From an uncultured Desulfovibrio sp. (GTDB lineage Bacteria; Desulfobacterota; Desulfovibrionia; Desulfovibrionales; Desulfovibrionaceae), in the NCBI GenBank assembly GCA_944327285.1, contig CALVHG010000019.1, positions 1 through 41,757 on the forward strand: a DNA stretch of 41,757 nt, in the 5' to 3' direction. Below are positions 2,165 through 39,944 of this stretch, piece after piece; the stretch's first letter is position 1, and each line of letters opens with the position of its first letter. The notes under the pieces were generated by a model. That model saw only the letters and a program-made list of their open reading frames with translations, did no database searches and had not been told where the DNA came from. Position numbers and translations under genes: made by a program.

Positions 2165-2305
2165 AGAGCGTTGCACCTTTGAAAAGGGTTAACGCGAGGC
2201 GGACAGCGCCGCCCGGCCAAAGTGAGCGGAAAAACGCGCTTTTTCCGCGAAACGACAGGCCGTATGGTTTGAAACGCGCAGCGTTTCAAACTGAAATTGC
2301 TCTAG
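2165..2305 (+). repeat. Dispersed repeat A, copy 3
   Basis: Near-complete copy. It starts TAGAGCG and ends TTGCTCTAG, so the ends are inverted (TAGAGC/GCTCTA). Internal stems GGCGG/CCGCC, GCGGAAAAA/TTTTTCCGC and GTTTGAAACGCG/GCGTTTCAAAC are visible. Confidence 0.85.
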
Positions 2306-2583
2306 GATACGAAAAACACGGGGAAGAAGAGGAAAGCGGCTTTTTACAGACAAAAGGTCTTTCCCCTTCTTCCCCGTCGGCATTCAGAGTTCAGCGCGGG
2401 AGAAGGGAAACGCGCCGGGGCCTGTCTCACAATTTCCCATGCAGTTTTCCAGGCAAAGCGGAAACAGCGGTGTTCCGGAAGGATATTCTTCGGCAGCCCT
2501 TCCTGTCTTTTTTATGCTGCCGGGGGACGGTTGTCGGAGAAACAGCCTTCGTGCTTCCGATCCTTTCCATCCTCCCGATAAAA
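2306..2583. other. Intergenic region with a long perfect-looking stem
   Basis: No gene is supported between the repeats. The notable element is an inverted repeat: ACGGGGAAGAAGAGGAAAG (2318-2336) against CTTTCCCCTTCTTCCCCGT (2359-2377), a ~19-bp stem with one mismatch and a ~22-base loop. No T-run follows it on either strand, so it is not a classic terminator. The remainder holds nothing I can name. Confidence 0.5.
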
Positions 2584-2663
2584 GCGCGCTGGGGAAAGGA
2601 TGGGGGCTTGGGGGGGAAGGGAAACCCCTCTGCTAGCGTGAGAGGTGTTTCCCTTCCCCCCAA
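2584..2663 (+). repeat. G-rich dispersed repeat B, copy 2 (short form)
   Basis: Begins AAAGCGCGCTGGGGAAAGG and runs into GGGGGGGAAGGGAAACCCCTC, then back through AGAGGTGTTTCCCTTCCCCC. The two halves form a hairpin of about 20 bp. It lies just past the 3' end of metG. Confidence 0.7.
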
Positions 2664-2677
2664 AAAAAGCGAACTCG

Positions 2678-4624
2678 CTAGGCAATATTGCTGCCGTCGG
2701 GCATGACGTCCGCGGGTTGCAGCAGGCAGAGCTTGCCGTCTTTTTCGGCGGTCAGCACCATGCCGCAGGAAACCAGCCCCCGGATTTTGCGGGGAGCAAG
2801 GTTCAGCACGGCGCAAACCTGCTTTCCGATGAGGTCCTGCGGCTTGTAGTATTCGGCAAGGCCGGAAAGTATCTGACGCAGCTGCCCTTCGCCAAAGTCG
2901 ATTTCAAGACGCAGGATGCGATCCGCGTCAGGGTGCTTTTCGGCATTGCGGACGGTTCCCACCCGCAGATCGACGGCCTTGAAGTGATCGAAGCTGATTT
3001 CCCCGGCGGGTGCGGGCGCTTCGGCCGGAGCTTTCTTTTCCTTCTTGGCCTTCTTTTCCTTGGCGGGCGCAGCCTCGGCAGGCGCGGGCATATCACGGCG
3101 CGGGAAAAGGTTAGACGAAGCGGCCAGGGCGGTTCCCGGAGCCAGAAGAGTAAAGTCGTCTATTTCCGCCTCCAGAGAGGGAACCGGGGAGCCGTTGTCG
3201 GCGACATCCTGCCCAAGCTGGCGCAGCAGGGTTATGGAGGCCTGAGGCATGACCGGCCAGACGCAGACGGCAACTTTGCGCATGGCCGTCAGCAGCACCT
3301 GCATGACGGTGCCGAGGCGGAGCATATCGCCCTGCTTGTGCAGAGCCCAGGGCGCCTGCGCGTCAACATATTTGTTAAGAGCGCGCACCAGCTCCCAGAG
3401 GGATTCCAGCGCCTGCGAGAACTGGACGTTGCCGAAAAGCTGACGGAAATTGCGCAGCGCGTTGGCGGCAAGCTCCGCAATGGCCTTGTCGTCTTCGGTG
3501 AGCGGCCCGGCTTCGGGAACCTTGCTGTCGCAGTATTTGGCGCACATGGAAAGAACGCGGCTGAACAGGTTGCCGAGATCGTTGGCCAGATCAGCATTGG
3601 TGCGGCTAATGAAGCCCTCTTCGCTGAAGCTGGCGTCGGACCCGAAGTGCATTTCCCGCAGAAGGAAATAGCGGAAGGCGTCCTGCCCGAAGCGCTGGCA
3701 CATATCCACGGGATCGACGACGTTCCCCAGAGATTTTGACATCTTGGTATCGCGCACAAGCCAGTAGCCGTGCACGTTCAGCCGTTTGTAGAGGGGCATG
3801 CCGGCAGCCTTGAGCATGGTCGGCCAGAAGATGCCGTGGGGCTTGAGAATGTCCTTGGCGACAAGGTGTTCGCCCGGCCAGTAGCGGGCGTAATCGCCTT
3901 CGGGCCAGCCAAGGGCGCTGATATAGTTGAGCAGCGCGTCAAACCAGACATAACAGACATAGTCCTTGTCAAACGGCAATTCGATGCCCCAGGACAGGCG
4001 CGACTTGGGGCGGGAGATGCAGAGGTCTTCCAGACCACCGGAATCAATCATGCCGAGCAGCTCGTTCCGGTAGCGCTCCGGCCGGATGAAGTCGGGATTC
4101 TTCTCGATATGTTCGCGCAGCCAGGGAAGATACTTCGACATTTTGAAGAAGTAGTTCTTCTCGCTGATAAATTCCGGCTTGGTAAGATGCTGCGGGCACA
4201 GACCGTTTTCCAGTTCCTTTTCCGTATAGAAGCGTTCGCAGCCGTAGCAGTAATGGCCGCCGAACTCCCCGAAATAGATGTCGCCGGCATCATAGACCTT
4301 CTGCAGGAAGCGCTGCACGGCCTTGATATGCTGCTCGTCGGTAGTTCTCACAAAACGATCGTTGGCAATGCCCAGCTGGGGCCAGAGGCTCTGAAAGCGG
4401 GCGCTGATGCCGTCCACAAACTCTTTGGGCGTTTTGCCTTCCTTTTCGGCGGCCTGCACGATCTTGTCGCCATGTTCGTCGGTGCCGGTAAGAAAGAGCG
4501 TGTCTTCCCCCGAAAGTTTATGGTAACGGGCCAGGGCGTCCGCAACCACGGTCGTATAGGCGTGTCCGAGGTGCGGCTTGGCATTGACGTAATAAATCGG
4601 CGTTGTGACGAAATAGGAGTTCAT
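2678..4624 (-). CDS. metG: Methionyl-tRNA synthetase (with C-terminal tRNA-binding domain)
   Basis: 648 aa. Charges tRNA-Met with methionine in the cytoplasm (class I synthetase). Visible: class I motif HLGH (18-21), single zinc knuckle C126-C129...C143-H146 (Thermus-type CPxH rather than a two-knuckle insert), KMSKS (294-298), helical anticodon-binding domain, a Lys/Ala/Pro-rich linker (about 515-545) and a C-terminal OB-fold EMAP/Trbp111-type domain starting near FKAVDLRVGTV, which normally dimerises the enzyme and holds tRNA. Start ATG 4624 follows AAGGAACCCTG; a 75-codon upstream extension in frame runs through repeat A copy 4 and is rejected. It sits downstream of ricT on the same strand with the repeat between them. 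Confidence 0.97.
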   Translation of the reverse strand: MNSYFVTTPIYYVNAKPHLGHAYTTVVADALARYHKLSGEDTLFLTGTDEHGDKIVQAAEKEGKTPKEFVDGISARFQSLWPQLGIANDRFVRTTDEQHIKAVQRFLQKVYDAGDIYFGEFGGHYCYGCERFYTEKELENGLCPQHLTKPEFISEKNYFFKMSKYLPWLREHIEKNPDFIRPERYRNELLGMIDSGGLEDLCISRPKSRLSWGIELPFDKDYVCYVWFDALLNYISALGWPEGDYARYWPGEHLVAKDILKPHGIFWPTMLKAAGMPLYKRLNVHGYWLVRDTKMSKSLGNVVDPVDMCQRFGQDAFRYFLLREMHFGSDASFSEEGFISRTNADLANDLGNLFSRVLSMCAKYCDSKVPEAGPLTEDDKAIAELAANALRNFRQLFGNVQFSQALESLWELVRALNKYVDAQAPWALHKQGDMLRLGTVMQVLLTAMRKVAVCVWPVMPQASITLLRQLGQDVADNGSPVPSLEAEIDDFTLLAPGTALAASSNLFPRRDMPAPAEAAPAKEKKAKKEKKAPAEAPAPAGEISFDHFKAVDLRVGTVRNAEKHPDADRILRLEIDFGEGQLRQILSGLAEYYKPQDLIGKQVCAVLNLAPRKIRGLVSCGMVLTAEKDGKLCLLQPADVMPDGSNIA

Positions 4625-8444: not shown

Positions 8445-11400
8445 ATGGCGCGTCTTTCGCAGATCAAGGCATCGGCCGGTTCCGGCAAGACCTACACCCT
8501 GACCCGTCTTTTCCTGCAGCGCCTGGCGGCTTCATCGCGGCACGTCGCGGGCAAAGCGCCCGCCTGCGCCTGGGAGGTTCCCGTGCGGGACGGCGAAACG
8601 GGCTGGGGCGAGATCATGGCCATTACCTTTACCAATGCCGCGGCCCGTGAAATGCGGGAGCGCGTCATCGAAACCCTCAAGCGCATTGCCCTGGGAGAAA
8701 AAGAACGGGACGTTCCCCTGACGCAGGCGGAAGCCCGTTGCCGGGTGGACGATATTCTGCGGGACCTGGGCCGTCTCAATATCCGCACCATCGACAGCCT
8801 GCTGCATCTGATTGTCCGCTCCGCGGCGCTGGAGCTGCGTCTGCCGCCGGACTTCGAGCCGGTCTTTTCCTCCCGCGACGCCCTGGCCCCCTATCTTGAT
8901 CTGCTGTTGCAGCAGGCGTGGAACGGCGATCCCGCCTATGAGGAACGGCGGGAACGCCTGCGTTCCATTTTTTCCACGCTGGTCAGATACCGGGACAAAA
9001 AAGGCTTTCTGGCGGGAAACACCCTGTCTCAGAGCATTTTCGCCCTGCTGGATGACGCTCTGCGGGGCGCGTATGACAACGTCTGCTCGACGGACGAGGT
9101 CATTGCTCTGGTGGAAGACTGCCGTTCGCGCATTCTGACATCGGCGGCGGTCCTGCTGCGCGGCATGTCGCCGGATGTCTATTTGAAAAATGCGCTCAAG
9201 GCGATGGAAAATCCTCTGCCGAAGAACAAGGAACCGTCCGCCTATCTTTTTAAGGACAGTCTGCTGGATCTGATGAAGGCTGCCGCGCGCAGGGAAGGCG
9301 TCGTTCCCGAAGCCTCGCTGCTGCGGGCCTACGATACGCTGCGGCAGGCTCTGTCGGAAAAGGTCATTGTCGATGCCGCCGTGGCGCGCGCGCCTTTTAT
9401 TGATCTGGCGCGTCCTCTGGCGCGGGCCTACATGAGCAACATACAGGAAGAAGGGCGCGTTCCGGCCGTGCTGGTGCCGGACCTGGCGGCCCAGATTCTC
9501 GACAGCCCCGGCGGCGTGCCCGCCGAACTGTGCCGCCTGGGAACGCGCCTCTCCCACTTCTTTGTGGACGAGTTTCAGGATACCAGCCGCGAGCAGTGGC
9601 AGGCCCTGAAACCGCTGATTATCGAAGCGCTGTCGCGCGGGGGCTCCCTGACATGGGTCGGCGACGTCAAGCAGGCTATCTACGGCTGGCGCGGGGGCGA
9701 CGCGACCCTGTTTGACGAGGTGCTGGAAGACCCGCAGCTGCGGGCGCTGGAGCCGCAGCCGGAACAAAAGAATCTGCCCTGCAACTGGCGCAGCCGGCGC
9801 GTCATCGTGGAGCATAACAACGCGCTCTTTGCCGGGCTGGAACAGGAAAACACGGCCCGCGCCGCCATGACCGCCCTGCTGGGAGAAAGCATTCCCGAAG
9901 AATTTCTTTCCGAGGCTGTCAGGCGCGTAACCAGAGCCTTTGCGGGAGCGGCGCAGCGCGTTCCCGACGGCGCGGAACGGGACGGCGGCTTTGTGCGGAC
10001 GCGCTGCCTGCATGCCGCCAATAAAAAGGAGCTGGACGAGCTTGTTTTGCAGGAAACGATCGGACTTCTGCGCAACACCGGAACGCGGTATGCGTGGGCG
10101 GATATTCTTGTGCTGGTCCGCGCCAACAAGGAAGCCGCCACGCTGGTGCGGGCGCTGACGGAAGCGGGCATTCCCGTCATAACGGAAAACAGCCTGCTGC
10201 TTGCCGCGCATCCGCTCGTCCGCCAGACGGTGGCTTTTCTGTCCTTCCTGAGCTCTCCGGCGGACGATGTGGCATTCTGGACGGTTGTTGCCGGCAGTAT
10301 CGTGCAGCAGCTGCCCGGCATGCCCTTTGACTGGCAGTCCCTGCACGACTGGTGCGTGAGCCGCAACCATGAGCAGCCCCTGTCCGCGCAGTTTCAGCGG
10401 CAATGGCCCGATATCTGGCGTCGGCTGTTTGCGCCCTTCCTGTCGCAGGCCGGCCTGATGACGCCCTATGACATTGTGCGGGAATGGTATCTGCTCTGTC
10501 AGGTGGAACGGCGCTATCCCGGAGATGCCGTTTTTGTGCGGCGTTTTCTGGAAGTCGTGCACGCCGCGGAGGATGCCGGGGCTGGCTGTCTGCCGCTTTT
10601 CCTGCAGCACTGGGGAGAATTTGGCGTTACGGAACAAATTCCCATGCCCGAAGGGCTGGACGCCGTGCGCATTATGACCATCCACAAATCCAAGGGGCTG
10701 GAAGCCCCCGTCGTCATCGTGCCCTGGCTGATGAGTTCGACCAGAGTTTCCAATGCCGTGCAGACCACGGTTGCCGGACGGGAAGTGTCCGTGGCCAATA
10801 TCAAGGCGCTGGGAGCGCCTTATTATGAGGAGCTGATCCGGCAGACCTGCGAAAGCCTTAATCAGATGTACGTGGCGTTTACCCGCGCCCGCGAGGAATT
10901 GCACATCTTCCATACCACGACGGACACGGCCAAAAAAGCCACTATCTGCAAGGGCCTCGACGTGCTCTGGCAGGCTGCGGGTCTGACGCCTCCCTACAGC
11001 TGCGGCTGTCAGGCGGCGTCCGTGTCTTCCGTGTCCGCAGGACAGGCTGCCCTGCCTGATATGCCCGAAGCGCTGCCCGGACGGGAGCTGCCTCCCGCCG
11101 GGGAATGGCGGCCCATGCAGTGGCTGCCGCAGCTCAAGGTTTTTCGCAATCCTTTGGAAGAACTTCGTTTTCGTCCCAAGGATCGCGGCGTTCTCTTTCA
11201 TGCCTGTCTGGAACATCTGGACTGTTCCGGCGACGCGGCGCAGGACGCGGCCCGCGCTGTCGCCCGCGTGCGGACGCTCGCGGCGCCGGCCGCCAGAGAG
11301 GCGCTTGACGAGGGCCTGGGCGCGTCTTTGGAGGAATCCGTCAGCTGGTGTCTTACGCAGAGCGATCTGCCCCGCTGGCTGGAACACGGCGTCCCGGAAC

Positions 11401-11702
11401 AGCCGCTGATGAGCGCTGACGGCGCGGAACTGCGCGCCGACCTGCTGGTGCGCGAGCCGTGGGGAATGCTGATTGTGGATTACAAGACAGGCGAAGACCG
11501 CCCTGCGTATGAAGCGCAAATGCGGCGCTATCTGGCCTGCCTGCCGGAACAGGAACAGGCCGCGGCCTGCGCGCTGCTGATTTTTGTGGATTTGCGACGT
11601 TTCAAGGCCGTGGGCTTGCGGGCCAGTTCCGAGCTGGAATCTGACTATCGGGCAGCCCTGCAGGCCGTGCGGAAGCAGTGCGGACAAGGAGAACGCGCAT
11701 GA
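8445..11702 (+). CDS. addA: UvrD/RecB-family helicase-nuclease, AddA type
   Basis: 1085 aa. Helicase-nuclease subunit that processes double-strand ends for RecA-dependent repair. Walker A ASAGSGKTYTL (9-19), Walker B-type FFVDEFQDTS (about 372-381), GDVKQAIYGWRGGD, CNWRS, and motif V/VI region IHKSKGLEAP (about 745) and YVAFTRAREEL are all present. The C-terminus carries a RecB-like nuclease: FHACLEHL (about 917), ADLLV, then IVDYKTG (about 1010), giving the PD-(D/E)XK residues. ATG 8445 follows the pfk stop by 4 bases with a poor ribosome site, so it may be coupled. The stop overlaps the addB start as ATGA. Confidence 0.92.
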   Translation: MARLSQIKASAGSGKTYTLTRLFLQRLAASSRHVAGKAPACAWEVPVRDGETGWGEIMAITFTNAAAREMRERVIETLKRIALGEKERDVPLTQAEARCRVDDILRDLGRLNIRTIDSLLHLIVRSAALELRLPPDFEPVFSSRDALAPYLDLLLQQAWNGDPAYEERRERLRSIFSTLVRYRDKKGFLAGNTLSQSIFALLDDALRGAYDNVCSTDEVIALVEDCRSRILTSAAVLLRGMSPDVYLKNALKAMENPLPKNKEPSAYLFKDSLLDLMKAAARREGVVPEASLLRAYDTLRQALSEKVIVDAAVARAPFIDLARPLARAYMSNIQEEGRVPAVLVPDLAAQILDSPGGVPAELCRLGTRLSHFFVDEFQDTSREQWQALKPLIIEALSRGGSLTWVGDVKQAIYGWRGGDATLFDEVLEDPQLRALEPQPEQKNLPCNWRSRRVIVEHNNALFAGLEQENTARAAMTALLGESIPEEFLSEAVRRVTRAFAGAAQRVPDGAERDGGFVRTRCLHAANKKELDELVLQETIGLLRNTGTRYAWADILVLVRANKEAATLVRALTEAGIPVITENSLLLAAHPLVRQTVAFLSFLSSPADDVAFWTVVAGSIVQQLPGMPFDWQSLHDWCVSRNHEQPLSAQFQRQWPDIWRRLFAPFLSQAGLMTPYDIVREWYLLCQVERRYPGDAVFVRRFLEVVHAAEDAGAGCLPLFLQHWGEFGVTEQIPMPEGLDAVRIMTIHKSKGLEAPVVIVPWLMSSTRVSNAVQTTVAGREVSVANIKALGAPYYEELIRQTCESLNQMYVAFTRAREELHIFHTTTDTAKKATICKGLDVLWQAAGLTPPYSCGCQAASVSSVSAGQAALPDMPEALPGRELPPAGEWRPMQWLPQLKVFRNPLEELRFRPKDRGVLFHACLEHLDCSGDAAQDAARAVARVRTLAAPAAREALDEGLGASLEESVSWCLTQSDLPRWLEHGVPEQPLMSADGAELRADLLVREPWGMLIVDYKTGEDRPAYEAQMRRYLACLPEQEQAAACALLIFVDLRRFKAVGLRASSELESDYRAALQAVRKQCGQGERA

Positions 11703-27621: not shown

Positions 27622-28761
27622 CTATGCCTCCCTTTCCGGGCAGCCGTTGCGCTGGCCGCAGGCATTGCAGACGGTTTCGACTACGCGCTCATCCGTTCGG
27701 GGACAAAGGACAGTCCGCACGGCATCTTCCTGCGGCGTGGGCTGCGGCTGTTCAGCCGCGGCGGTCTGCGCAGCAAGTCGTTCTTCCGCCTGCCGCCTCA
27801 TGCGCTTGCAGTCCGTGATCGTCCACTTGTCGCGCGGCTTACCGCCCGCCGCCCATCTGATGGCGGCATCATCCATGCCCGCATCCCGGCAGAGCTGTTC
27901 CGTTTCCGCGCGCAGGGCTTCCAGTTCCGCCTCCTTCCGGCGCTTTTCGGCTTCCTTGTCGGCAACGGCCTGCGCGTCCTGTTCCATCGGGGCCGGAGCA
28001 GGAGCCGGGGCCGCTTCCTGCGGCTGTGTCAGCGGGGCTTCGGCGGGCTGGTCGTCCTGCGCGGCCTCGACGTGTTGGGGCTGTTCCACCTGCGCCGCAA
28101 TCTGCGCCGTAGTGATGGTCGGGGCCGCCTCCTCTGCGGCAGGGGCAAAGGAGCCGTCCGCCTGCCGCACATAGTCCACGGCGTCCTGTTCTTCTTCCGC
28201 CGTGCGCAGACCCATAGCAATTTCAGGCGCGTAGACATTCACAAACCACGCGGCGGCGCGGTAGCGCAGCATCTGTTCCGGCATGGTATGCCACTTGCTG
28301 CCGGTCTTGTTGAACCAGCCTTCTTTTTTGGCAAGGCCGATGGTGATGAGGGGGCCTTCCAGTTTTTCCCCTGTCGCCAGCTCCACAGCGCAGGCACGGC
28401 AGCCCCATGCGTCCGTGTTTTCCTGCCCCTGAAAAACATAGCGCAGCGCGGAAAAACGTCCGCTCTGATTCAGCGTGGCGATCAGAAACTTTGCCGACCA
28501 TGCCGGTGTTCCATGAACATCGTAAAGATTCTGCATGACCATCAGAGGATTGGCGTTCATCCGCAGAGCCATGTCCATGGCAATGGCCGCGCTGCCGAGG
28601 TTTGCTTCCCCTCTGTAGGACTTCGGGACAATGGGAGACATCGTGACCATACGGGCCATGCGTTGCAGGGCCTCGAATCCGGCAATGGTATCGAAACCGA
28701 CGCGCACGGCTGCGGGGGCGGACTGCGCATTCAGGGTGGCAAGCGTCGTCAACTGGGTCAT
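27622..28761 (-). CDS. RecT-like single-strand annealing protein
   Basis: 379 aa. The N-terminal ~190 residues (FEALQRMARMVTMSPIVPKSYRG...MNANPLMVMQNLYDVHGTPAWSA..., MLRYRAAAWFVN) match what I know of phage recombinases annotated RecT: annealing of single strands during phage recombination. The middle is an Ala/Glu/Gln/Pro-rich linker (about 225-285). The C-terminus has a charged helix and a four-Cys cluster (CPRT...CNACGQRNGCP). ATG 28761 has GGAGG upstream, 4 bases after the exonuclease stop. Pairing with that exonuclease supports a Red/RecET-type module. A distinct annealase family is possible. Confidence 0.65.
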   Translation of the reverse strand: MTQLTTLATLNAQSAPAAVRVGFDTIAGFEALQRMARMVTMSPIVPKSYRGEANLGSAAIAMDMALRMNANPLMVMQNLYDVHGTPAWSAKFLIATLNQSGRFSALRYVFQGQENTDAWGCRACAVELATGEKLEGPLITIGLAKKEGWFNKTGSKWHTMPEQMLRYRAAAWFVNVYAPEIAMGLRTAEEEQDAVDYVRQADGSFAPAAEEAAPTITTAQIAAQVEQPQHVEAAQDDQPAEAPLTQPQEAAPAPAPAPMEQDAQAVADKEAEKRRKEAELEALRAETEQLCRDAGMDDAAIRWAAGGKPRDKWTITDCKRMRRQAEERLAAQTAAAEQPQPTPQEDAVRTVLCPRTDERVVETVCNACGQRNGCPEREA

Positions 28762-28765
28762 GGCA

Positions 28766-29562
28766 TTACCTCCACCGGCAGGTTGCGTATGCCGGGCAAT
28801 AATTGGGGTGACAGGTCTGGGAGCGGGGATTGCCGTAAAAGCGGCCGGCATGCAGCAGGGCGGCGGCATGATGCAGCAGGCCGGGGGAATCGACATCGCC
28901 TACCAGCCGGGCACGGGCGTTTTCCACCGTGCCGGAGCCGGCGCGCTGCCCTTTGGCGGTCTTGCCCGCCTGCAGACCGAGGATATGGGCCGGGGCCGTG
29001 ATGCGCACGCCGTAGCTGGCGGCCGCCAGCAGCTCATACACGCCGAGCTGGGCGGCATGGCCGGTCGTCCTGCCACGGCGCTCTTGCCTGTCTTGATGTC
29101 CGCGATGCCGTAACCAAGAATCGGATCGCGATAGATGCGGTCTGTCGTTCCGGTCAGGACAAGGCCCACATCCTCAATCACGAGGGCCTCGCAAGAGGCC
29201 TCGACCGCCGCCCAGTCGTATTCCGGCGACACCTGCTCGCAGTAGAGACGGCAGAGGTCGATGCCGATCTTTTCCACGTCGGCGGGCTGCATGTCGCCGC
29301 TCCAGTCCACGTCAACGGTGCGGGCCTCCTCTCTGGCTGCATCTGCCACAATGCCCGCCGCGTCGTCAAAAGAAATCGGCTCGCCGTTGATGACGGCCTG
29401 ATCGAAGGCCGCCGCCCCGGCGTGGACGGCATGGCCAAGCACGGCGCCCGGCCCGGAGGGCAGGCGCAGCCCGCGAAGGTGCTTTGCTTCCCAGCGGGCG
29501 GGACAGTCGAAAAGGTCCGCCAGCGAACTGGCGCGGATGGCGATAACATCAGGCATGGGCAT
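28766..29562 (-). pseudogene. PD-(D/E)XK exonuclease (RecB/Cas4-like), frameshifted
   Basis: The first frame (ATG 29562) shows IRASSLADLFDCPARWEAKHL, GAVLGHAVHAG (the G-x-x-H motif), GTTDRIYRDP and IADIKTGK, the catalytic D...K of the superfamily. The frame breaks after that. The other frame continues HAAQLGVYELLAAA...LQAGKTAKGQ and ends in a Cys pair (C in NYCPAYATC) at 28766. Restoring one base at GGCC (~29059) joins them. With Cys in CPARW and the C-terminal Cys residues it may carry an Fe-S cluster like Cas4/AddB (inference). Partner of the RecT-like gene 4 bases downstream. Confidence 0.78.
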
Positions 29563-36362: not shown

Positions 36363-36912
36363 ATGCCCGACTACGAAACCATGAGCGCACAGGACCACTG
36401 CTCCACGCCAAGGACGTTTCCGGCCTGACGGCAGACGAGATTGCCCGGAGGGCGGGGTGAGTCCGCATATTCTGCGGCGCTACTTCAAGGCCACGGAACC
36501 GGAGTATCTGCCGGGGCTGGAGCGGATTCCGGCCCTGTGCCGCGCCATGGGCAATCTTGTGTTGCTGCACTGGTTGGAATCCAGGTGCGCCGCCCTGCGC
36601 CCCGCTCTGCCCAGCGCGGGGAACCGCGCCGACGTGCTGACCGCCGTGGCGCGGGCGGGCGCAAGTCTCGGCGATGTGCAGCGCGCGCTGGCCGACAGCG
36701 AGAACGGCGGCATCACGCCCGCCTGTGCCCGCGAGCTGCGCGGCCTGCTGCGCGACGTGATTACCGATTGCGAACGCGCGCAGGGCATGCTGCACGCGCA
36801 GGCCAGAGCCAGGGACATGACCGAGGCCGCGCCGCTGTTTTCACTGGATCCGGACGGCACGGCCGCCGCACAGGCGCGGCGGCCGTGGTGGCGCTTCTGG
36901 GAGCGGCGATGA
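36363..36912 (+). pseudogene. CII-like phage regulator, two frameshifts
   Basis: Three frames each carry a piece: MPDYETMSAQD (from ATG 36363, GAGG upstream), LLHAKDVSGLTADEIARRAG (HTH), and VSPHILRRYFKATEPEYLPGLERIPALCRAMGN onward to the stop at 36912. Restoring one base near 36397 and one G in GGGG at 36454-36457 joins them into ~180 aa: HTH plus a helical oligomerisation part, like CII/YmfL-type regulators. As sequenced, the third frame could only start from a GTG at 36457 without HTH. Stop overlaps an ATG (ATGA). Confidence 0.65.
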
Positions 36913-37267: not shown

Positions 37268-38749
37268 GTGCGCTACCTGTCCGTATGTTCAGGAATAGAG
37301 GCCGCGAGCGTCGCATGGGCTCCGCTGGGATTTTCCCCCGTGGCGTTTGCGGAGGTCGAGCCGTTCCCCTGCGCGGTTCTGGCCCGACACTATCCCGATG
37401 TGCCAAACCTCGGCGACATGACCATGATTGACGGCTCCTCTTTGCGCGGACGTGTGCATGTGCTTGTAGGCGGCACGCCCTGCCAGTCATTTTCCGTGGC
37501 CGGGCTGCGGAGAGGGCTGGATGACGAACGAGGCAATCTTGCCCTTGAATTTGCGAGGCTGGCGGATGAGTGCAATCCAGCTTTCATTGTTTGGGAAAAT
37601 GTCCCCGGAGTTCTCTCCGACAGGGGAAACGCTTTCGGATGCCTTCTGGCAGCACTGGCCGGCGAAAATGTGCCGCTTCTCCCGCCAGGGGGAAGATGGA
37701 CGGACTCTGGTTATGTGCTTGGACCCGGCAGGACAATCGCGTGGCGCATCCTTGATGCCCAATATTTCGGCCTGGCCCAACGCCGCCGCCGTGTCTTCCT
37801 TGTCGCATGTCCTTGCGGAGGAGCCGATCCCCGAAAGGTTCTTTTTGAGTTCGGCGGCCTGCGCCGGGATACTCCGCCGAGCCGCGAAAAGGGGCAGGAC
37901 ATTACCCAGGCTCTTGCAAGAAGCCTTGGAACGGGAGGCCCGGACGACAACCGGGCGCAGGGGGGATTCTACGTCCCCCAGGTTGTAGAGCAGGCCATGT
38001 CCTGCAAGTGGAGCAAGGGCACTTCCGGCCCGGCCGGCGACGAACATCACAACCTGATTGCCGGGCCCCTGAACTGCCGGCCGTATGCCGACAATGTCGC
38101 GCAGGAATCACGCCTTGCCCTTGCGGTGCGCACGGCCCAGACCTCGGCAAACGGATGCGGCGTAGCGGCTGGACTATCCCATACGCTGGACGGAGCAAAC
38201 GGACAGGCAATCCTTTCTTTTCACGGTTCTCAAGACCCCGATGTGTCGAAGGACGTAACGCATCCTCTTGGCCGTAATCAGGGGCGGGAAACCTGCATTG
38301 CCATACAGGCCGGCGCTGTACGTGAGAATCCGCAATCCGGCCCCCAGGGGAGGGGATACCGCGAAGACGGTCTGGCCTACACGCTTGAAGCCCGGGCCGA
38401 AGTGCAAGCCCTGGCAGTACAGCAGAATCAGTCTGGTGACATCCGGCATAGCGACGTCGCCTATACTTTGGGAACCACCACCAGCCCGAGCGGTCGTAAT
38501 ACTCCCATGATACAAACGATACAAACAGAGCTGAGAGTGCGCCGTCTCACTCCTCTGGAATGCGAACGTCTGCAAGGCTTCCCCGATCACTATACCCGCA
38601 TCGCCTGGCGTGGAAAAAGCGCTGAGAACTGTCCCGACGCCCCGCGATACAAGGCCCTTGGCAACTCGATGGCCGTGCCCGTCATGCGCTGGATCGGAAA
38701 ACGCATTCTCATGGCGGACAAGCTGATGTCGGCATCCGTGGAGGTATGA
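37268..38749 (+). CDS. dcm: DNA cytosine-5 methyltransferase (phage Dcm type)
   Basis: 493 aa, GTG start directly after the upstream stop. Methylates cytosine C5 in DNA using S-adenosylmethionine. Motif I LSVCSGIEAASVAW, motif IV GGTPCQSFS with catalytic Cys, motif VI WENVPGV, motif VIII AQRRRRVFLVA, motif IX/X RRLTPLECERLQGFPDHY and ALGNSMAVPVM. Between VIII and IX lies a ~200-residue region built of repeated S/T-x-x-L-(x)3-5-G units (SHTLDGANG, THPLGRNQG, AYTLEARAE, AYTLGTTTS) in place of a usual target-recognition domain. No cognate restriction enzyme is nearby: an orphan phage enzyme, likely for evading host restriction. A second gene lies inside in the +1 frame. Confidence 0.95.
   Translation: MRYLSVCSGIEAASVAWAPLGFSPVAFAEVEPFPCAVLARHYPDVPNLGDMTMIDGSSLRGRVHVLVGGTPCQSFSVAGLRRGLDDERGNLALEFARLADECNPAFIVWENVPGVLSDRGNAFGCLLAALAGENVPLLPPGGRWTDSGYVLGPGRTIAWRILDAQYFGLAQRRRRVFLVACPCGGADPRKVLFEFGGLRRDTPPSREKGQDITQALARSLGTGGPDDNRAQGGFYVPQVVEQAMSCKWSKGTSGPAGDEHHNLIAGPLNCRPYADNVAQESRLALAVRTAQTSANGCGVAAGLSHTLDGANGQAILSFHGSQDPDVSKDVTHPLGRNQGRETCIAIQAGAVRENPQSGPQGRGYREDGLAYTLEARAEVQALAVQQNQSGDIRHSDVAYTLGTTTSPSGRNTPMIQTIQTELRVRRLTPLECERLQGFPDHYTRIAWRGKSAENCPDAPRYKALGNSMAVPVMRWIGKRILMADKLMSASVEV
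37521..37988 (+). CDS. Overlapping phage gene inside dcm (+1 frame)
   Basis: 155 aa from ATG 37521 (GGAGAGG upstream), or from ATG 37566 with GAGG upstream. It lies wholly within the methyltransferase gene. Its sequence is not random: MSAIQLSLFGKMSPEF, MPNISAWPNAA, SLSHVLAEEPIPERFFLS and ACAGILRRAAKRGRTLP follow a pattern I know from many phage and prophage proteins (LSLFGKTSPE..., SLSDVLETGxxPxRFFLS, GILRRAxRRGK). At the same DNA the main frame keeps methyltransferase motifs VI and VIII. Dual coding is therefore likely. Function unknown. Confidence 0.6.
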   Translation: MTNEAILPLNLRGWRMSAIQLSLFGKMSPEFSPTGETLSDAFWQHWPAKMCRFSRQGEDGRTLVMCLDPAGQSRGASLMPNISAWPNAAAVSSLSHVLAEEPIPERFFLSSAACAGILRRAAKRGRTLPRLLQEALEREARTTTGRRGDSTSPRL

Positions 38750-39944
38750 GTATGGCGCGCTATCGCAAAATATCCCCCTGCATCTGGAATGACGCCAAGG
38801 TGCGCGGCCTGTCGGACAAGGGCAAGCTGACGCTGTTCCTGCTGCTCACGCATCCCACTATGACAAGCCTCGGCGCGCTGCGCGCCAACATTCCCGGTCT
38901 GGCCTGCGAGCTCGGCTGGAAGATGTCGGTTTTTGCCCGCGCCTTCCGCGAGCTGCTGGACTGCGGCATGGCCCGGCAGGATGCCGACGCGCAGCTGATC
39001 TGGTTCCCCAAATTCCTGAAACACAACGCGCCGGAGTCGCCCAACGTGGTGCGCGGCTGGGCCGCGGCCTTTGAGGAGCTGCCGGAATGTCCCCTGAAGC
39101 TGGATGTGCTGGCGGGCGCATGGGCGACGCTGGCGGCGTTTGGCGAAGGTTTCCGCGACGCCTTCCGGGAAGTCTTCGGAGAGATTCTGCCGAAGCCTTG
39201 CGAAAAGCCTTCGGCAAGCCTTCCCGAAAGCCTTTCCGAAGGCTTCCGCCAGCCCTGCCCGAATCAAGAACAAGAACAAGAACAAGAGCAGAATAACCCC
39301 CCTCTCCCCTGACGTCTTCCCGTAAGCCGGACAATACGCGCAGGGGGGAGGAGCACGGCCCGGCGGCGCAGCCCGTCATGGCTTCGGGGAAGGCTTGCGC
39401 CGGGGCTGACGCAAGCCTTGCCGAACCCCTGCCGGAAACGACGACCGAAGACCGGCCCGCTCCCCGGCGGCAGGGGCCGCCCAGAACCGACTGCCCCGGC
39501 AAGGGGCATCCTCAGCGGGCGGCCTTTCTCTCCTGCTGGCAGGTCTACCCCGTGAAGCAGGGCGAGGAAGAAGCGTGGCGGGAGTGGATGCGCCTGTACG
39601 CCAACGGCACGCTGGAACAGCCGCACATCATCCGCGACAAGATTCTGGAGCTGACGGCCTGCGACAGCCGCTGGCAGCGCGGCAAGATTCCGACCTTCGC
39701 ACGCTGGCTCAACGGCAAACGCTGGAACGACGAGCCGTTCACGGAAAACGGCCTGCCGCCCGCCGAAAGCGCGACACAAACGGCCTGCCGCGCCCCCACG
39801 GTGTTCCAGCAGCGTTTGCAGGAACGCCAGAGCATGCTTGCCACACTGCACAGGGAGAACGACGAAGGAGAACACGATGAAGACCATGATTGCCGACGCG
39901 CTGCTGCGCATGACGCTGCTGTTCGACAAGCCGCTGCTGGCTAA
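38746..39944 (+). pseudogene. Phage replication protein (DnaD/replisome-organiser-like), frameshifted
   Basis: The first frame (ATG 38746 overlapping the dcm stop as ATGA; a second ATG 6 bases on) has an N-terminal winged-helix-like domain (RYRKISPCIWNDAKVRGLSDKG..., LGALRANIPGLACELGW), a variable linker and an EQEQEQEQ run, stopping at 39312. Adding one C to the C6 run at 39297-39302 carries it on through RKPDNTRRGEE into the second frame, with FLSCWQVYPVKQGEEEAWREW...GKIPTFARWLNGKRWNDE, the usual C-terminal domain of such proteins. The end overlaps the next gene by 68 bases. Probably loads or recruits the host helicase at the phage origin (inference). Confidence 0.72.

Follow-up and report, generated by a model that had tools for sequence, protein, structure and literature searches.

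The closest described counterpart of the arrangement reported here is the ShiLan element, an out-of-frame HNH endonuclease in mycobacteriophage DNA methylases. ShiLan is an insertion that is absent from uninvaded methylases, encodes an HNH homing endonuclease and has no detectable ribosome site (PMC11855218). Work on the bacterial sliding clamp provides a second point of comparison. One review places the clamp-binding consensus, QL(S/D)LF, at the C-terminus and mentions Dnmt1-PCNA coupling, which is eukaryotic and involves a single polypeptide, as well as the clamp-binding toxin SocB (PMC9690074).

We analyzed a 41,757-nucleotide stretch of DNA from an uncultured Desulfovibrio sp. (contig CALVHG010000019.1; the window), in which a phage cytosine methyltransferase gene, dcm, very probably contains a second gene, translated and under selection, in its +1 reading frame. 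This assessment, which derives from sequence comparisons, applies to the gene and does not extend to the clamp-related role discussed below. As in ShiLan (PMC11855218), a phage DNA methylase gene appears to conceal a second protein in a different frame. In contrast to ShiLan, the present open reading frame (ORF) lies across the core of the methylase (motifs VI and VIII, and motif IV as well in an architecture that we call type II) and has a start codon with a Shine-Dalgarno (SD) sequence. A ShiLan-type insertion was set aside, the ORF overlying Dcm core motifs VI and VIII, as was an HNH endonuclease domain, given that searches of Pfam, PHROG and NCBIfam with the +1 protein (read from 37521) gave nothing at E <= 1. 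The features needed for what follows, in window coordinates, are:

37268..38749, + strand: dcm, putative C5-cytosine DNA methyltransferase, 493 aa, GTG start, frame 0 (PF00145, phrog_116, TIGR00675, motifs)
37521..37565, + strand: upstream +1 extension of the originally proposed ORF, not conserved (+1 stop in relatives L176 and L177)
37555..37558, + strand: GAGG, probable SD sequence, 7 nt before ATG 37566 (sequence; excess of start plus SD in relatives)
37566..37988, + strand: nested +1-frame gene, 140 aa (start supported by relatives; homologues; selection evidence)
37578..37592, + strand: QLSLF, N-terminal motif of the +1 protein resembling a sliding-clamp-binding motif (sequence; enrichment in relatives)
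37797..37895, + strand: C-terminal part of the +1 protein, SLSHVL...RFFLSSAACAGILRRAAKRG (best conserved; confidently predicted helical)
36457..36912, + strand: CII-like transcription activator gene, context (phrog_101, E 4.4e-10)
38746..39312, + strand: DnaD-like helicase loader/replication gene directly downstream of dcm, context (phrog_1701, E 2e-12)

By domain and motif content, the frame-0 product is a putative C5-cytosine DNA methyltransferase (PF00145, E 8.3e-43; phrog_116, E 4e-89; TIGR00675, E 1.5e-41). It contains what we take to be motifs I, IV, VI (WENVPG, 37592–37609), VIII (QRRRR, 37778–37792), IX and X. A prior sequence-only reading of this DNA had proposed that the main frame keeps motifs VI and VIII over the bases it shares with the +1 frame, and this is borne out. 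The gene order is CII-like gene, short ORF, dcm and DnaD-like helicase-loader gene; because the latter adjoins dcm, the dcm/+1 pair lies beside replication functions. Elsewhere in the window are genes for a helicase-like protein (8445–11702, + strand; phrog_1967, E 5.6e-40) and a RecT-like annealing protein (27622–28896, − strand; phrog_561, E 1.5e-59).

The 155-codon +1 ORF originally proposed (37521–37988) is present with the peptides quoted for it, lies entirely within dcm (37268–38749) and belongs to a frame that is open from 37470. Its start at 37521 was rejected, as in both L176 and L177 the stretch corresponding to 37521–37566 is interrupted by a +1 stop. From the position of 37566 their +1 proteins run on as MSAIQLSLFGK and MSQTQLSLFGK, respectively, and the best database match (P0001) likewise begins MSQTQLSLFGK. 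Since the 37521 start is not conserved and relatives begin at 37566, we take the gene as 37566–37988, encoding 140 aa. The claim that the ORF has its own ribosome site holds in amended form: an AG-rich stretch does precede ATG 37521, but that start is not conserved, and we place the site at GAGG 37555–37558. The nested gene therefore has a predicted start and ribosome site of its own. Its QLSLF is an exact match to the clamp-binding consensus (PMC9690074), but here the putative clamp motif is N-terminal.

We measured the +1 frame against codon shuffles (100 per locus) in which the methylase protein sequence and codon usage are both preserved. Openness alone is not significant in the window, where the +1 frame is open for 172 codons (shuffle mean 114, maximum 187 in 100 shuffles). 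The score to the +1-family profile, by comparison, is 206 bits against a shuffle mean of 61 and a maximum of 102; a shuffle mean of this size indicates that part of the +1 likeness is a shadow of the methylase motifs and the remainder is not. Homologues that keep dcm without the +1 feature were sought among 80 viral loci fetched with an alignment of dcm residues 1–84, which lie outside the ORF. These were the best 80 of at least 593, and the query alignment was built from loci chosen by their +1 protein plus the window, so the set is blind to the overlapping DNA and is not a random sample of methylases. Four loci that run off their contigs (L105, L126, L146 and L155) were dropped. All 76 tested scored above all 100 of their own shuffles for the +1 family (observed mean 132, minimum 87; null mean 24). 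The same check on eight phage methylases picked by methylase alone from the list of named phages gave a divided result, with five beating all 200 shuffles and three (L292, L294 and L295) failing to do so. Thus, the nested feature is widespread among phage methylases without being universal. In a set selected by the +1 protein itself (the best 80 of 114 loci), the methylase frame is free of stops over the match in 80/80, and the third frame has at least one stop in 80/80.

Among 70 non-redundant members (71 of 77 loci kept, the window excluded from the comparison), the chance that the same residue is encoded by a different codon is 0.65 in dcm codons 1–50, 0.19 in codons 191–220 and 0.62 in codons 415–490. 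Column medians fall from a background of 0.641 to 0.491 in codons 101–140, 0.414 in codons 141–175 and 0.153 in codons 176–220 (p 5e-18); just downstream of the overlap, in codons 231–300, the median is 0.696 and suppression is absent. The suppression is stronger in the +1-chosen set (58 non-redundant of 75 loci), at 0.22 in codons 101–240 versus 0.51 and 0.50 outside. Close relatives of the window show the effect in pairwise comparisons: third-position differences from L176 number 22/123 in the overlap and 90/147 outside (p 3e-13), and those from L177 number 32/123 and 92/150 (p 6e-9). Three locus pairs (L083/L175, L084/L176 and L087/L178) are not independent, as their identical figures probably mean that each pair is one locus.

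In dcm codons 191–220, amino-acid identity is 0.717 in the +1 frame versus 0.421 in Dcm, and the third codon position is less variable than the first in 24/30 columns, compared with 1/50 in codons 1–50. In codons 101–175, third positions are more variable than first positions (0.495 vs 0.286; 7/75 columns reversed) and +1 identity is 0.44; because the methylase phase prevails there, the N-terminal half of the +1 protein appears to be weakly or moderately constrained. One DNA segment is thus under two protein constraints, and in one part the recognized frame is the looser one. The proposal that this stretch encodes two conserved, selected proteins is upheld by the shuffles, the suppression and the phase, including the predicted lowering of synonymous change, which is strong in the overlap, absent in codons 231–300 and accompanied by reversed codon-position variability in codons 191–220. 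On these comparisons, selection acts on both frames.

The nested genes fall into two architectures. In type I (the window, phage P1 and most of the +1-chosen set), the +1 gene starts near dcm codon 97–104; in type II (Mycobacterium phage Lucky2013 and most of the set chosen by the dcm N-terminus), it starts near codon 50–64, covers motif IV as well and often shows AAGGAGTGG before TTG or ATG. A start with an SD sequence was counted at 25 of 40 non-redundant loci for the type I site (shuffle mean 2.3, maximum 8) and 42 of 66 for the type II site (shuffle mean 10.6, maximum 20), versus 0/40 and 0/66 in frame +2 controls. Suppression in codons 53–84 is seen in the set that is mostly type II (median 0.405, p 5e-6), whereas the mostly type I set lacks it (median 0.511, p 0.37), as two architectures predict.

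Shortly after the predicted start, many members carry Q-L-(S/T/D)-(L/M/F)-(F/W) or a near variant, often QL(S/T)(L/M)F. This motif, newly recognized here, follows the start at both dcm positions. It occurs in 27/40 loci at the type I site (shuffle mean 0.3, maximum 2) and 43/66 at the type II site (shuffle mean 1.2, maximum 4), and control stretches contain it in 2/40, 1/66 and 0/66. In 195 database proteins of the family, a collection in which relatives were kept unthinned and starts are those chosen by gene callers, the motif is found among the first 14 residues in 85 (permuted mean 0.9, maximum 5) and elsewhere in 2. The motif is not dictated by the methylase alone, since its two sites lie over different dcm codons. 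It is absent from P1 (MQLTTNG) and from Streptococcus phage Javan105.

The sequence-only reading spoke of a recognizable phage family; the +1 protein does not belong to a family described in Pfam, PHROG or NCBIfam. It nevertheless has many relatives. The window protein matches 254 database proteins at E <= 1e-3, and a profile of distant members matches at least 6719 database clusters at that threshold (among 7999 scored), of which the 120 listed contain no Pfam domain and are mostly nameless. By tblastn, 150 records in a collection of named phages match, including Vibrio, Mycobacterium, Caulobacter, Escherichia (P1, P7), Pseudomonas, Ruminococcus and Streptococcus phages. PADLOC returned no family for the window protein at E <= 0.01; P0113 had a weak match to a PADLOC type II methylase (E 0.0028). 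Matches in BFVD were a protein named cytosine methyltransferase (E 3.8e-4) and an uncharacterized protein of Mycobacterium phage Thibault (E 3.9e-3). PHROG 16143 (139 aa, named DNA methyltransferase) shows weak matches to 8 of the 10 family members compared with it (best 7.1e-12), whereas it does not match the window protein at E <= 1; its name seems borrowed from the overlapping gene. Both PHROG 16143 and BFVD A0A8S5LZA8, likewise named DNA methyltransferase, match the +1 family, suggesting that part of the family may bear the name of the overlapping gene in error. A literature search of titles and abstract openings, with subscription journals mostly outside its scope, found no description of the nested gene.

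We fetched 17 named phage loci and ran 200 shuffles on each of 13 (L091, L092, L093 and L286 were left out). The family score exceeds all shuffles in 10 of the 13, including P1, Lucky2013, Streptococcus phages Javan105 and Javan240, Lactococcus phage D7893 and Vibrio phage S4-7; Javan240, D7893 and S4-7, at 30–39 bits, are likely family members. Loci that do not exceed their shuffles are those of Arthrobacter phage Juno112, a Klebsiella phage and Gordonia phage Phinally. Open length is above all shuffles in 5/13 and unremarkable in 8/13. In P1, the dmt gene contains an intact +1 ORF of 157 codons (L090 2947–3420; AF234173.1 66728–67201) with GGAG 7 nt before its ATG, which is not among the 40 features annotated for that stretch. 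Juno112 has two overlapping genes in different frames, both named DNA methyltransferase (L292 611–1210 and 972–1769), and no member of the +1 family.

The phrase "phage gene embedded in the methyltransferase", taken to mean a gene that moved in, finds no support, as we found no stand-alone copy among the loci examined. Distant +1 proteins served as queries, and the best 80 of 583 loci plus nine named phages were examined; all 89 have a methylase match. In 87 of the 89, the methylase frame is open and matching over the +1 match, and in two (L206 and L210) it has stops. Nor is a separate gene for the +1 protein annotated in the nine named phage regions, P1 included (L090–L093, L284–L288). In four overlapping sets of 80 viral loci, which share contigs (L008/L171 and L232/L371 at the least), the methylase frame is continuous over the +1 match in 304/320; of the others, 10 have a split methylase frame, 2 have stops and 4 have no +1 match. 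Two loci (L260 and L267) sorted as overlapping among the 89 and as split under the stricter sort of the 320. The +1 profile match is itself interrupted by a stop at 8, 17, 21 and 20 loci in the four sets.

Since no stand-alone copy occurs among the loci examined, the nested gene most likely arose in place. An AlphaFold2 model of the +1 protein (94 sequences) has a mean pLDDT of 71, with ten-residue blocks at 87–97 for residues 91–130, 75–84 for residues 31–50 and 50–68 for the rest; helices are predicted at residues 79–84, 96–109 and 115–129. The PDB yielded no sequence match and no convincing fold match. By hhalign, 30 columns of the C-terminal segment of the +1 protein align to a segment that, in ordinary C5 methylases, lies in frame after motif VIII (P 0.005 and 0.009; probability 7 and 4%); here the segment is in the +1 frame. 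Among related bacterial methylases (L174–L203), none has the displaced segment in frame 0. The alignment suggests that an old deletion or frameshift may have displaced the C-terminal segment and that a new upstream start then came into use, which would explain both the in-place origin and the likeness.

Could the +1 likeness be a mere shadow of conserved methylase motifs over an untranslated frame? Motifs VI and VIII do dictate part of the +1 peptide, and Dcm-keeping shuffles of the window still average 61 bits. However, all 76 N-terminus-chosen loci exceed all of their shuffles, the post-start motif overlies two different dcm positions, and both the synonymous suppression and the reversed codon phase in codons 191–220 contradict a shadow, making it very improbable. 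The suppression might instead come from an RNA or DNA element, as any overlapping element lowers synonymous change. Such an element is not expected to produce the +1 codon phase that the constraint displays, nor does it fit the preservation of +1 amino acids above frame-0 ones in codons 191–220, and we find it scarcely credible.

Another possible source of the +1 sequence is ribosomal frameshifting, with the N-terminal half of Dcm fused to the C-terminal part of the +1 sequence as the main product. PF00145 is found in 13 of the best 120 database homologues; in 12 the N-terminal part of Dcm leads into +1 sequence, and in P0094 alone the order is reversed, with +1 sequence leading into the C-terminal part of Dcm. 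The dcm frame is split in 10/320 viral loci, and Faecalibacterium phage FP_Toutatis (L286) encodes a Dcm/+1 join. In that phage, an annotated N-terminal methylase part runs into +1 C-terminal sequence (2317–2922) and the C-terminal part is a separate CDS (2964–3728); the joined CDS is either a natural join of two frames or a sequencing error. More generally, joined forms may be genomic frameshifts or sequencing errors, and the conserved internal start with its SD sequence, together with an N-terminal motif tied to that start, argues for independent initiation; frameshifting as the main source of the +1 sequence is improbable.

For the nested gene as an independently initiated unit, we propose that ribosomes on phage mRNA would begin Dcm at GTG 37268 and, from a second start within the gene at ATG 37566, would also produce the 140-aa +1-frame protein, internal initiation being inferred from the conserved start and the SD sequence. 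In the small protein, a QLSLF peptide at the N-terminus would be followed by a less certain middle region and then by a confidently predicted C-terminal helical domain. By analogy with known clamp binders, the QLSLF-like motif may bind the clamp. The peptide would then dock on the bacterial sliding clamp and carry the C-terminal domain to the replication fork, where it could work with Dcm on new phage DNA or alter the host's use of the clamp. We offer this docking scheme tentatively, as possible but somewhat short of an even prospect; our best guess is that the +1 protein is a replication-fork accessory protein made together with the methylase. We give an even chance to a real nested protein whose QLxLF-like peptide is not for the clamp and which acts as a Dcm partner, regulator or anti-restriction factor. 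The +1 protein is found only with methylases in the loci examined, the motif is short and missing in P1 and Javan105, and the C-terminal domain, not the peptide, is best conserved. Set against these points are the enrichment of the motif at two sites (27/40 and 43/66), its placement in the first 14 residues in 85 of the 195 unthinned database proteins (elsewhere in 2) and the replication-gene neighbor in the window.

If docking occurs, the pair would be a phage counterpart of Dnmt1-PCNA coupling split over two reading frames. Dnmt1-PCNA (PMC9690074) would be its analogue in function only if the +1 protein connects Dcm with the clamp, and any contact between the +1 protein and Dcm is hypothetical here. 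In its broadest form, the idea is that an old gene inside the cytosine methylases of proteobacterial, actinobacterial and firmicute phages encodes a sliding-clamp-docking protein, so that one segment makes both a DNA-modifying enzyme and a factor that brings the enzyme, or a competing activity, to the fork, with a C-terminal domain that may be the methylase's former post-motif-VIII segment displaced by an old frameshift. We regard this full account as doubtful. The motif offers a direct test, clamp binding, of why phages keep the nested gene.

The same genome has a second dcm (L082/L198; C161, about 2303–3307, minus strand) that is 47% identical to the window dcm over codons 100–222. It also has +1-family sequence, without the 45-codon type I start region and with the look of type II. 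Near-identical relatives of the window dcm (L083, L175) share 98–100% identity over codons 1–222 and 97% over codons 421–490. Between these, in codons 240–420 (~37985–38527), just 78 codons align, at 73% identity, as if the recognition domain had been swapped.
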